In this document: in pieces, positions 14,071 to 23,932 of the stretch
How the letters are laid out: each line of letters opens with the position of its first letter
Numbering within the stretch: position 1 is the stretch's first letter
DNA from: a virus
Virus record (IMG/VR): IMGVR_UViG_3300028548_003072
Span: 1 to 33,443 of that record
Reading direction: 5' to 3' (one strand)
Length of the DNA: 33,443 nt
The notes under the pieces: generated by a model
What the model was told of the DNA's origin: nothing
The model's input: the letters and a program-made list of their open reading frames with translations, nothing else
Database searches by the model: none
Position numbers and translations under genes: made by a program

Positions 14071-14460
14071 TTACTTATCCTTTCTTAGTATGTTGATAAC
14101 ATTGTCTATTTGTGGATTAATCTGTGGACTACTTTTTTGTTTGCCCAATGATATTCTTCTTCTCTTATTGATGTTGTGATTGATGTATTCTTGCATTGTA
14201 GTTTTATCAAAAACATAATGACAAGTTGAATTGTCAATTTGCTTACGACTTAACATTCCAAACAAAGTGAGTCGGTCAAGGATTTTAATTAATGTTTTCC
14301 TGGTCTTAATTTTAGTTCTATCCATCAAATACTTATGAGAAATACGACAACCCATTGGTGCATTTTCAAAACTCTTACAAATAATATAAACAACCTTTTC
14401 GTTGGCACTTAGAACTTTGTTGTTTAATAAATCGGTATGAAACTTTTCAAATGTTTTCAT
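14071..14460 (-). CDS. Winged-helix replication/regulatory protein, 129 aa
   Basis: This 129-aa protein has an N-terminal winged helix-turn-helix at residues ~15-80: LSANEKVVYIICKSFENA, then ISHKYLMDRTKIKTRKTLIK and a LTLFGMLSRK wing. This resembles the HTH_36 type found in phage replication initiators and RepA-like proteins. The tail is basic (NKRRRISLGKQ). It overlaps the methyltransferase upstream by ATGA. Direct repeats lie just downstream (13997-14068) and could be its binding sites. It could start replication or regulate the operon; neither is shown. Confidence 0.68.
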   Translation of the reverse strand: MKTFEKFHTDLLNNKVLSANEKVVYIICKSFENAPMGCRISHKYLMDRTKIKTRKTLIKILDRLTLFGMLSRKQIDNSTCHYVFDKTTMQEYINHNINKRRRISLGKQKSSPQINPQIDNVINILRKDK

Positions 14461-15113
14461 AAAAACAATCCATAATAATCGCCTAATCTTTTATTAACTG
14501 TGTCAAAGTATTTTTTATCTAATTCAATACCTATAAATTTTCTATTTAGGTTTCTGGATGCAATTGCAGTAGTTCCAGACCCCATAAAAGGATCTAAAAC
14601 AACATCTTTTTCATTTGAAAACTTAGAAATTAAATGTTCCATCAGCATTATTGGCTTTTCGGTTGGATGGTATTTATTTTGAGTTCTTGCAAATTTAAAA
14701 ATATTTGGTGATCTATCGCCATTTATTAATTTTCTACCTTTTTGTAAAAATATTATGAATTCAACTTTAGGTGCAAAATCTGCACTTAAATCACCCATTG
14801 ATGTATTGTTTTTTTCCCAAACTAATATATTTTTTATTGTAAAATATTTTTCAAATGCTTGTTTAAATTTATCAATATTATGAAAACTACAAAAAACATA
14901 ATGAGCTGTATTATTTTTAGTTTTATCGAAACACAATTTAGAAAAATCATTTAACCAATCTAAATTATTATCATTTTTAATTTTATCATATTTTATTTTT
15001 CTATATGAACTTTTAAATTCCATTCCATAAGGAGGATCAGTTAAGATTAAATCTACACTTTCATCTGGCAAAGTTTTCATAACCTCTAAACAATCTCCAT
15101 GAAATAATTGCAT
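14457..15113 (-). CDS. DNA methyltransferase, N6-A/N4-C type (beta order)
   Basis: This 218-aa enzyme transfers a methyl group from S-adenosylmethionine to an exocyclic amine of adenine or cytosine. The catalytic motif DPPY is at residues 26-29. The cofactor motif DPFMGSGTT is at 174-182, preceded by HPTEKP (149-154), giving the beta-class order. It is short, without an obvious separate target-recognition domain. It overlaps the MT-A70 gene upstream (TAATG) and the winged-helix gene downstream. It probably modifies phage DNA against restriction or affects regulation. The target site cannot be read from sequence. Confidence 0.9.
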   Translation of the reverse strand: MQLFHGDCLEVMKTLPDESVDLILTDPPYGMEFKSSYRKIKYDKIKNDNNLDWLNDFSKLCFDKTKNNTAHYVFCSFHNIDKFKQAFEKYFTIKNILVWEKNNTSMGDLSADFAPKVEFIIFLQKGRKLINGDRSPNIFKFARTQNKYHPTEKPIMLMEHLISKFSNEKDVVLDPFMGSGTTAIASRNLNRKFIGIELDKKYFDTVNKRLGDYYGLFL

Positions 15114-15658
15114 TACAGCTCATTCCCCCAATTATCCCATCCATCGCTTTTAAAATCTTGTCTGGCAAATAATTCAATTCTGGGAAGATCACCACAAAGT
15201 TCTACTATGTCATTCCTGATCCTGTCAGGCTTCCTACTGTGTTCTCTCCTTACATCCATAACAAGTTGCTTAACACTCATCGAAACCCTCTTAGGTTTCC
15301 CCCTTGTAGCTAACAGACACATCTCTGGGTTAGCTCTAGTCCAATATCCCATTCCAGTAAAATTACCCTCAGATTTTCTATTCTGTTTTACCCAACTAAA
15401 AGCTACTGTCTTAAATTTAAAATTCCATGCTTTAAGCAGCTCAAAAGACTTGTGCAATAAAGGATCAACAACCCACATAAACAATACACAATCCACAGCA
15501 GCAATACTGTCGATATCAAGATTACATAAATCGTTAAATTCCATACATGGATAATGTTTTGTAGCATTTCGTTCTTCTCCTTTTTTTGAATAGCTTTTAA
15601 AATACCAAGGTGGATCAGCATAAATAATATTGTATTTCTTTTTAGGAAATGGGATCAT
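15113..15658 (-). CDS. MT-A70 family adenine methyltransferase
   Basis: This 181-aa enzyme of the MT-A70 group has its catalytic DPPW at residues 15-18 (YADPPWYF). Family segments VLFMWVVDPLLHKSFELLKAW and FTGMGYWTRANPEMCLLATRG follow, then IELFARQ near the C-terminus. The group makes N6-methyladenine in DNA (phages, Ime4-like relatives in RNA). It overlaps a zinc-ribbon gene upstream by ATGA and the second methyltransferase downstream. Two different amino-methyltransferases in a row suggest deliberate modification of phage DNA. Confidence 0.9.
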   Translation of the reverse strand: MIPFPKKKYNIIYADPPWYFKSYSKKGEERNATKHYPCMEFNDLCNLDIDSIAAVDCVLFMWVVDPLLHKSFELLKAWNFKFKTVAFSWVKQNRKSEGNFTGMGYWTRANPEMCLLATRGKPKRVSMSVKQLVMDVRREHSRKPDRIRNDIVELCGDLPRIELFARQDFKSDGWDNWGNEL

Positions 15659-21758: not shown

Positions 21759-22910
21759 TTAGTTATTAAACTGTTGGTTCTGCCAATCGCTTCTTCCTTT
21801 TTCCATTTCAGTATTAGCATAAGGCTTGATGTAAGTTCTTCTAACAAAATCTACACTATCATCACCAAGAGCATCAGCCAGGTCTTGAGGGTCTGTGTAC
21901 TTCTTTTTCCATGCCCAGTATGTTGCCATAAAATGTCTGAAAGTATAGCACTTACGATTGATGGGTAGTTCCTCCCCAAAACTCTTTGTTGCCTTGTCTA
22001 AGTGCTTTATAAGAGTTTCTAGCCTTACATATTTACCATTTTTCTCTAGGAACAAACTATCTTGAGTTTCTGGTAATTGGTTTAGATGATCTTGAATCTT
22101 ATCTTTTAAACTAGATGAAATAACTAGATCCCTAACCTTTTTGTTTTTAGTTAAACCAAGACTCCCATTTCTTTTAACTGCATTAGAAATTGATAAGTAT
22201 GGAGAGTTAGATTTAAACCTTAGATGTGATCTATTTAAACCTCTAATCTCACTAGGTCTACAAGCAGTTTCAAGCATCAATAAAAACATTAATTTTATAT
22301 CAGCTCTCTTAGTATGATTAATAAGATCAATCATTCTGTCCAATGACCAGACCTCAAAATCTAACTTATCAAACTTACGATTTTCAATCACAATGTCATA
22401 AAGATAATCCATATCTTTACATACATTCCTAGCCAACTTTCCTTTAGCAGCAGAAGCATCTAAGATAGCACTCAGAACATTAAACACTTTAGATAATGTC
22501 TTAGCATTAATTGCTTCCTTTTTTTCTAAAAATTTAACAAATGATTTAATGGAATCTTTGTCAATTAACCTGGCATCCTGGTTATAAAAGTATGGCAAGA
22601 TATGAAAGGTAGCCATGCTATTATAATCCCTTATACAGCTCTCTGAGGGCTTGTTATAAGCTGCATTCTTCTTTATTAGACGATCATACCATAGTTGGTG
22701 AGCTTCATCTATACTCCAATAGCTAAAGTCAGTAATTTTAAAACCATCAGTTTCAACTTTCTTTACTACAATAGGAGTAAGATTTTTTCTCTTACCCCTT
22801 GTAATAAACTTGATTTTATTATCAGCACCCTTGTACTGAAAACGATACTTAGTCTGACCTCTAACTTGTACTGGTGTGATATTATTATATTGTAGTTTTT
22901 CTTTAGACAT
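21759..22910 (-). CDS. int: Tyrosine recombinase integrase
   Basis: This 383-aa integrase has an SAM-like core-binding part around residues 75-170. The catalytic domain includes ACRPSEIRGL (Arg 218), a Lys in TKNKKVRD (~255-258), YTFRHFMATY (Arg 325, His 326) and FVRRTYIKP (Tyr 360 nucleophile). The usual His of HxxR is Tyr 322, and the LGH position reads LGDD (Asp 350). Both changes are found in some active relatives but are unusual together. It sits 980 bases from the tRNA-Asn-derived attP. It would integrate the phage at the host tRNA-Asn gene. Confidence 0.93.
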   Translation of the reverse strand: MSKEKLQYNNITPVQVRGQTKYRFQYKGADNKIKFITRGKRKNLTPIVVKKVETDGFKITDFSYWSIDEAHQLWYDRLIKKNAAYNKPSESCIRDYNSMATFHILPYFYNQDARLIDKDSIKSFVKFLEKKEAINAKTLSKVFNVLSAILDASAAKGKLARNVCKDMDYLYDIVIENRKFDKLDFEVWSLDRMIDLINHTKRADIKLMFLLMLETACRPSEIRGLNRSHLRFKSNSPYLSISNAVKRNGSLGLTKNKKVRDLVISSSLKDKIQDHLNQLPETQDSLFLEKNGKYVRLETLIKHLDKATKSFGEELPINRKCYTFRHFMATYWAWKKKYTDPQDLADALGDDSVDFVRRTYIKPYANTEMEKGRSDWQNQQFNN

Positions 22911-23209
22911 TATGCTCTCCCTCTCATTCTATCTGCTGCTGCTAATCTATTATCAACAATAGCTTGATCGTATTGTCCAAGAGTATCATTTTCATCTAAT
23001 CCAGATACTTCAGATATATTTTTTTTATATTTTTTAATTAAAGGAAGTTGATCTATTAATTGTATAAGACAATTACCAGTATAAACTTCTCCATACCATT
23101 TTAAAGTCCAAGCCATAGTTTCTCTATTGTACTTACACTTTTTTTCTATATTGATTTTTTTTCTTGCCAACACATATCTTAACTTTTCTTCTATTATTTT
23201 ATTATCCAT
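22910..23209 (-). CDS. Integrase-operon protein, 99 aa
   Basis: This 99-aa protein starts MDNKIIEEKLRYVLARKKIN and ends RLAAADRMRGRA. Its TAA overlaps the integrase ATG (TAATG), so int is translated by coupling. Its own leader is identical over 16 bases to that of int. It lies directly upstream of int and could be an excisionase-like or directionality protein. No known family is recognised. Confidence 0.65.
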   Translation of the reverse strand: MDNKIIEEKLRYVLARKKINIEKKCKYNRETMAWTLKWYGEVYTGNCLIQLIDQLPLIKKYKKNISEVSGLDENDTLGQYDQAIVDNRLAAADRMRGRA

Positions 23210-23607
23210 TATGCTCTCCCTCCATAATAGTTTAGCTCATTTTCTTTTTGACATTCTTCCAGCTCATCAACTGGAAGTTTTGGTTTTTCCATTTTGATAG
23301 GCTCAACAATTTCAACATGGTAAGGTTGGTCAGCACAATATTCAGCTTGTTTTAAAAACAATCTGTAAGCTGTGTAACTAGCTGGAATTAATCTAGTATA
23401 TTCCGAAACATAACCTTGAACATTATAATCATGGCTATCGTAAAAACACTCATCACTTTTAAGCACAGCTATTTTACCATCAACTGCAAAATTATTTATT
23501 TTTTTTACAGTAGATAAATCAATTTCATCTTGAGTTGAAAACTTTGATTTAGTAGCGATCTTGTAACCTTGAATAACAAGTTTTCTTCTTTGTTTTTGTG
23601 TAGTCAT
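23209..23607 (-). CDS. First gene of integrase operon, 132 aa
   Basis: This 132-aa protein starts MTTQKQRRKLVIQGYKIAT, with AAGGAGAGAGAAT before the ATG. It is the promoter-proximal gene of the leftward lysogeny operon. The body has AVDGKIAVLKSDECFYDSHD and a Glu/Pro-rich C-terminus. The stop overlaps the next gene's start. It might be a regulator or accessory factor, but no domain is recognised. Confidence 0.65.
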   Translation of the reverse strand: MTTQKQRRKLVIQGYKIATKSKFSTQDEIDLSTVKKINNFAVDGKIAVLKSDECFYDSHDYNVQGYVSEYTRLIPASYTAYRLFLKQAEYCADQPYHVEIVEPIKMEKPKLPVDELEECQKENELNYYGGRA

Positions 23608-23676: not shown

Positions 23677-23787
23677 CAGTCATTTGTTCATATACTGCAA
23701 TCATTTTCCACCTAGTTCCAGGTGATATAAAAAAAATATGAAATTGTGAGAACCGATTCGGTATAATTTTGGTATAACTTTTGTAAT
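23640..23787. repeat. 17-base inverted repeat and tandem 11-base repeat left of attP
   Basis: GGTATAACTTNTGTAAT occurs on the minus strand at 23656-23640 and on the plus strand at 23771-23787 with one mismatch. Next to the latter, GGTATAATTTT and GGTATAACTTT abut at 23760-23781 as an 11-base tandem repeat. Smaller palindromes CACCT-6-AGGTG (23709-23724) and ACCGATTCGGT (23752-23762) lie between. These may be integrase arm sites, excisionase or repressor sites. Confidence 0.5.
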
Positions 23788-23827: not shown

Positions 23828-23867
23828 AAAAAAAGAGCCGAAAAAAATCTTGCGATTCAATTCGGCT
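23828..23867 (-). terminator. Strong terminator of the leftward lysis/late operon
   Basis: Minus strand: AGCCGAA, UU internal loop, GAATC, GCAA tetraloop, GATTT, UU, TTCGGCT, then C and seven T. The stem is 7+5 bp with a GNRA loop, plus a U-tract at 23834-23828. It would end late transcription arriving from 24146 rightward genes and keep it out of the integrase control region. Confidence 0.85.
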
Positions 23868-23878
23868 ATATGTATAAA
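23850..23878 (+). promoter_or_regulatory. Promoter aimed at the attP tRNA half
   Basis: TTGCGA (23850-23855), 17 bases, TATAAA (23873-23878). The expected start is near 23885, about six bases before the tRNA 5' end at 23891. After integration it would drive the hybrid tRNA-Asn gene. Its -35 lies in the loop/stem of the minus-strand terminator. Confidence 0.6.
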
Positions 23879-23890
23879 CACTTTTATTAT

Positions 23891-23932
23891 TCCTCGGTAG
23901 CTCAGTTGGTAGAGCAGTTGACTGTTAATCAA
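23891..23932 (+). other. attP core: 5' half of tRNA-Asn(GTT)
   Basis: The 42 bases read as the 5' half of a tRNA: acceptor strand TCCTCGG, D-arm GCTC...GAGC, anticodon stem GTTGA, loop CTGTTAA with anticodon GTT, and the return strand TCAA. The next base, G, cannot pair with G27, so the tRNA identity stops there. The T-arm and 3' acceptor are missing. It lies beside the integrase operon and is therefore the likely attachment core, matching a host tRNA-Asn gene. Confidence 0.8.

Follow-up and report, generated by a model that had tools for sequence, protein, structure and literature searches.

The window, that is, the whole stretch of 33,443 nucleotides that was analysed, is the record of an uncultured virus. 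It encodes an SU10-type portal and a large terminase of the Terminase_6N family, which was closest to the terminases of pelagiphages (best HTVC106P, 55.6%; HTVC028P, 47.7%). Two adjoining DNA methyltransferase genes were also observed at 14457-15658 on the minus strand (PHROG E 2.5e-71 and 5.1e-81). We were particularly interested in the region from the integrase gene to position 23932, which contains the following features.

21759-22910, minus strand: tyrosine integrase (Pfam PF00589, E 6.7e-9; PHROG integrase, E 5.4e-26)
22910-23209, minus strand: 99-aa ORF between int and attP
23209-23607, minus strand: 132-aa ORF between int and attP
23760-23783, plus strand: tandem GGTATAAYTTTTG-like repeats, conserved in relatives, possible integrase arm-type sites
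23828-23867, minus strand: hairpin resembling a terminator (AGCCGAA/TTCGGCT), with a T-run after it; folding energy -15.2 kcal/mol, z -3.7; overlaps the promoter-like pair and was absent from the preliminary description
23850-23855, plus strand: putative -35, TTGCGA, invariant in three relatives (L127, L128, L157)
23873-23878, plus strand: putative -10, TATAAA, 12 nt before the tRNA, invariant in the same three relatives
23891-23932, plus strand: attP core, the tRNA-Asn(GUU) 5′ half, which begins at the mature 5′ end and runs through to the 3′ side of the anticodon stem; 42/42 against SAR11 tRNA-Asn genes, first 38 nt in 49 viral half-tRNA contigs
23922-23928, plus strand: anticodon loop, CTGTTAA, presumed 7-bp crossover (overlap) region

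The attachment core and the rebuilt tRNA-Asn gene

The 42 letters of the core (TCCTCGGTAGCTCAGTTGGTAGAGCAGTTGACTGTTAATCAA) were compared with bacterial genomes and were identical at every position to the 5′ half of tRNA-Asn(GUU) of SAR11 (Pelagibacteraceae). At least 120 bacterial genome stretches contained the exact 42-mer; among the matches listed, all titles except one name Pelagibacteraceae, Pelagibacterales or Pelagibacter, and in the host loci that were read it formed the 5′ part of the tRNA-Asn gene. The 38-nt version of the core was found in 273 of 397 genomes of the SAR11 family. These results support two proposals of the preliminary description, that the core is a tRNA 5′ half starting at the mature 5′ end and that the SAR11 tRNA-Asn gene is the target. 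The window thus has the arrangement of a tRNA-targeting tyrosine integrase: int lies close to an attP that matches part of a host tRNA gene exactly. The int start codon was 981 nt from the core, which lies upstream of int and outside the gene, so that int would not be split on integration as in pTN3-like suicidal integrases. The two ORFs between int and attP gave no Pfam or PHROG matches. The int operon runs opposite to the tRNA direction for ~2.2 kb, and on the plus strand after the core no clear gene was found before 24645.

ARAGORN detected no tRNA in the window as it stands. It did recognise tRNA-Asn in a construct in which the window sequence stops at 23928, the last base of the anticodon loop, and continues with a host 3′ half; the reconstructed opposite junction gave no tRNA-Asn. 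The phage therefore does not carry a complete tRNA of the disrupted isotype, as in tRNA-dependent lysogeny; the host gene is rebuilt. In the reconstruction, and at junctions in relatives, the rebuilt gene follows element DNA, which is the expected outcome for a carried 5′ half. The choice of CTGTTAA as the presumed overlap region was drawn from tyrosine-recombinase biology (PMC8371274).

Related phages and natural junctions

The exact 38-mer was found in 58 viral contigs, of which 7 had a complete tRNA-Asn gene, 2 were left junctions to host DNA (L160 and L180) and 49 had a half-tRNA attP. Thirty of the 49 belonged to group A (HTVC028P type), in which int lies on the tRNA strand and starts 246-281 nt after the core start, and the late genes lie just upstream of the core, running in the tRNA direction. 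Another 15 formed group B, the relatives of the window, with int upstream of the core on the opposite strand. Integrase side and strand were constant within each group (30/30 in A, 15/15 in B). The remaining four had no int match, and most of these had little sequence on the expected int side. In group A attPs the match to the host ended right after the anticodon loop. A short ORF of ~48 codons with a strong ribosome-binding site was observed between the half-tRNA and int of HTVC028P (L002 6130-6275).

The exact 3′ half was also searched for in viral contigs. It gave 7 matches, of which 6 were complete tRNA genes and one was L328, a group-A-type phage whose int is 44% identical to that of HTVC028P and lies 291 nt downstream of the core. 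In L328 (2404-2479, reverse strand of the locus) the tRNA-Asn 3′ half was exact and the 5′ half had decayed (25/38 identical), with its last 11 bases, around the presumed crossover, intact, indicating an apparent switch from a 5′-half to a 3′-half attP. Given that the 5′ half of L328 has decayed, an exact 5′ half seems not to be needed for recombination alone. Judging from this one phage, the best explanation for its exactness elsewhere is that a functional tRNA has to be restored. In viral contigs, a 17-nt anticodon-arm pattern was found, among the matches listed, mainly in complete tRNA genes of other hosts. HTVC019P was considered as a further case and dropped, as no matching half-tRNA was recognised beside its int.

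Among the 397 genomes of the SAR11 family, the 38-mer occurred twice in four. Genome G289 contained, on one contig (L228), tRNA-Cys, the native promoter, the 5′ half, and then a group-A int with more phage genes; on another (L229), phage late genes, a hairpin and a TTTACA promoter were followed by the complete tRNA-Asn and then by host genes of XRE and amino-acid-transporter type. Genome G074 showed both junctions in the same arrangement (L226, L227). In each lysogen the two junctions lay on separate contigs. Both prophages belong to group A, sharing the attB of the window but differing in integrase arrangement. Moreover, in an island of genome G005 (L193, L194 = G005:C24) the complete tRNA-Asn followed element DNA, and the native promoter stood at the other end. 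The flanks of this island are group-B-like; no integrase was found in it, and it carries a cytosine methyltransferase and a restriction-type gene. The proposed loss of the native promoter on integration was therefore observed at both junctions in G289, G074 and the G005 island, and at the left junction in L180. For the integrase group of the window itself, searches of the 397 SAR11 genomes with the integrase protein and a 6-row profile found no lysogen, whereas the group-A query, which served as positive control, worked; the junction evidence thus comes from group A relatives and the group-B-like island. One locus of genome G003 (L051) was set aside as a lysogen junction, because the phage contig found in G003 (L191) has an intact attP and lacks a host junction. 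A separate complete tRNA-Asn is also present there, so G003 gives no evidence of integration.

A single complete tRNA-Asn gene was present per genome in the six genomes checked. A native promoter-like pattern, for example TTGTTT-16/17-TAAGTT or TATGTT, was found shortly before tRNA-Asn in 145 of 153 host loci, and was kept with or without a tRNA-Cys gene just upstream. Precise excision would restore attB with this native promoter, so the phage does not hold its host hostage, and the suggestion that host viability is tied to the prophage is not supported. Harm to the host would come only from a deletion that removes the attR-side promoter.

Terminator-like hairpin, putative promoter and predicted expression of the rebuilt gene

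The pair TTGCGA-17-TATAAA was found exactly as first described, ending 12 nt before the tRNA start at 23891. As a lone motif it is weak (p ~0.04 against dinucleotide shuffles), and 9-of-12 promoter matches are commonplace in the window (8 found, 14.6 expected). A generic sigma-70 matrix scored against shuffles was rejected as a test, because it also scored the hosts' own conserved promoters poorly (p 0.08-0.89) and was indecisive for phage and host promoters alike. Since the single-sequence match is weak, the case for a promoter is carried by comparison. In three relatives (L127, L128, L157), with integrases 74-100% identical to that of the window, the stretch from -50 to -25 upstream of the core was 100% conserved and that from -25 to -1 was 92% conserved. 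Other group-B types showed TTGATA 16-17 nt ahead of a TTTAAA-like sequence, or no clear pair (L131, L143, L145 and L151). The region upstream of the core in the window had no homology to the host native promoter region (the best match, 25.6 bits, was no better than shuffled sequences gave).

Of 11 group A upstream sequences that differ from one another by more than 20%, 10 had TTGACA or TTTACA beginning 46-49 nt ahead of the tRNA, against an expectation of 0.026 matches per sequence in a 20-nt window; these sequences are related and not independent trials, although their integrases range down to ~42% identity. The -35 was usually followed 17 nt on by TAAAAC, TAAACA or a similar sequence. The proposal that the phage brings its own promoter is thus well supported by comparison in group A; for the window, the pair as tRNA promoter is plausible but unproven.

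In most half-tRNA contigs, the sequence just ahead of the core included both a promoter-like pair and a hairpin of terminator type. The four group-B types tested all had a minus-strand hairpin with a T-run immediately upstream of the core, in the same position and with differing stem sequences (z -3.4 to -6.1). At the island junction L194, no stable hairpin was found within the stretch tested. In group A, AGTGAA...TTCACT hairpins stood ahead of the promoter, with z -1.9 to -4.5 in three types; the test was not significant in two others. In group B the hairpin would block late-gene transcription, or in a lysogen host transcription, from entering int.

Taken together, positions 23828-23932 probably form a carried-5′-half attP that belongs to a temperate phage of SAR11, and the rebuilt tRNA-Asn would be started by an adjacent phage promoter. 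Crossover by the integrase would take place within the anticodon loop of the host's one tRNA-Asn gene. The phage 5′ half and the host 3′ half would then rebuild an identical tRNA gene, as the joined sequences indicate, and the native promoter would be left at the other junction before a useless 5′ half, as in the related lysogens. The rebuilt gene is predicted to start from the promoter immediately upstream, TTGCGA-17-TATAAA in the window; comparative evidence points to TTKACA-17-TAAAAM as its equivalent in group A. The hairpin may insulate the promoter cassette and the int operon from neighbouring transcription. In group A, the upstream promoter would drive int in the free phage and would be exchanged for the host tRNA promoter once integrated.

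Three other explanations were weighed against this mechanism. The 5′-half attP could be right and the rebuilt tRNA read through from a more distant phage promoter; the weak score of the pair in the window and the group A late genes, which lie just upstream and run in the tRNA direction, would fit such transcription. However, the neighbouring int operon of the window runs the other way, hairpins stand between the genes and the tRNA in most types, and the promoter position is conserved in group A, so that we consider distant read-through unlikely. A promoter serving int or another phage gene, placed before the tRNA half only incidentally, would agree with the short distance to a same-strand int in group A. 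In the window, by contrast, int is on the other strand and the plus strand lacks a clear gene before 24645, and in group A the int and tRNA roles are compatible; this explanation therefore appears very improbable. Whole tRNA-Asn genes do occur in some large phages, and the 42 bases might be the decaying remnant of such a captured gene and no attachment site at all. We dropped this explanation, to which we give hardly any credence, because the identity is exact, the integrase stands alongside at a fixed side and strand, and integrated copies of relatives were found.

The usual native pattern was absent from eight of the 153 host loci. Six of them (L037, L051, L197, L206, L208 and L209) contained phage-like promoter sequence. 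In three, homology to the left arms and promoters of group-A attPs far exceeded the shuffled controls, with 67.1 bits in L197, 65.3 in L037 and 63.5 in L206, against a maximum of 41.0 bits across 1000 shuffled queries. In L206, L197, L208, L209 and L037, tRNA-Cys lay directly upstream without intervening phage genes; these loci were thus rejected as prophage junctions and are taken as prophage-free. The alignment of L206 with the phage locus L125 extended over 171 bp, well into the attP arm. The segments in L206, L197 and L037, which lie between tRNA-Cys and tRNA-Asn, may be remnants of a lost prophage that have come to act as the host promoter, or may reflect the capture of host promoters by phages. 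Because the L206 homology extends so far into the attP arm, prophage loss is tentatively favoured. From these sequences, we give even chances to the proposal that, in some SAR11 lineages, the sole tRNA-Asn gene has permanently exchanged its native promoter for one of phage origin. If true, phages and hosts would trade promoters of an essential gene at the tRNA-Asn site. Such prophage-free hosts also speak for the carried-5′-half explanation given above.

Comparison with known systems

In the usual account of integration into tRNA genes, the element supplies the 3′ part and the host promoter is undisturbed; for bacterial tRNA genes, the original promoter is retained with very few exceptions (review PMC8371274, citing Williams 2002 and Cossu 2017). 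Among the phages of SAR11, whose members rank with the most abundant bacteria in the ocean, the reverse is common: the 5′ half is carried in two integrase groups, apparently together with a hairpin-plus-promoter cassette of their own. These phages provide natural experiments in which the promoter of a single-copy tRNA gene is replaced, a straightforward prediction for group A, namely integration-dependent promoter exchange for int, and a possible route for phage promoters to become host promoters.

A 5′-half attP is not unprecedented, since PMC8371274 and PMC8776855 describe such cases; the arrangement is known but rare: pTN3-like integrases of archaea have it, and T7-like cyanophages share at least the 5′ half. 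New here are lysogens of pelagiphages, a cassette of hairpin plus promoter, and SAR11 genomes without a prophage in which the tRNA-Asn promoter region is homologous to phage attP. Bacterial examples are seldom seen; in archaea, the pTN3-like integrases have the 5′ half as their site, and the integrase promoter serves for expression (PMC8371274). These integrases resemble the window in that att consists of the 5′ half of a tRNA gene and the restored tRNA is read from a promoter in the element (PMC8371274, citing Cossu 2017), which in the window would be the putative promoter; however, their site lies inside the int gene, which is split on integration, whereas that of the window lies outside int. 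In the T7-like cyanophages P-SSP7 and S-TIP37, attP likewise matches the first half of a host tRNA, and integration was shown by PCR (PMC8776855). These phages differ in using tRNA-Leu and in having attP downstream of int; no stable lysogens were found, and no promoter comes up in the sections of PMC8776855 consulted. In P-SSP7, P-SSP2 and P-SSP3 we found TATAAT 19-20 nt before the tRNA-Leu 5′ half, in sequence otherwise diverged (L190 5835-5898; L336 and L337 1470-1539), which hints that the half-tRNA-plus-promoter design is wider than SAR11 phages.

HTVC028P and the other group A pelagiphages share with the window the same attB, the tRNA-Asn 5′ half and a hairpin and promoter upstream, but their int lies downstream on the same strand with late genes upstream, whereas the int of the window lies upstream on the opposite strand. 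Mycobacteriophages usually carry the 3′ half, and some bring a whole replacement tRNA (PMC10865867). Their tRNA-dependent lysogeny is similar in that the phage compensates for a disrupted host tRNA and supplies the promoter; it differs in using a whole tRNA gene with a short att core, whereas the window carries half a gene and the host gene is rebuilt. For ICEKp1 at tRNA-Asn, state-dependent promoter switching has been measured, the host tRNA-Asn promoter driving int when the element is integrated (PMC13023037). Integration thus changes the promoter that reads int, as predicted here for group A, but ICEKp1 inserts at the 3′ end of the tRNA, whose promoter stays in place (PMC13023037).
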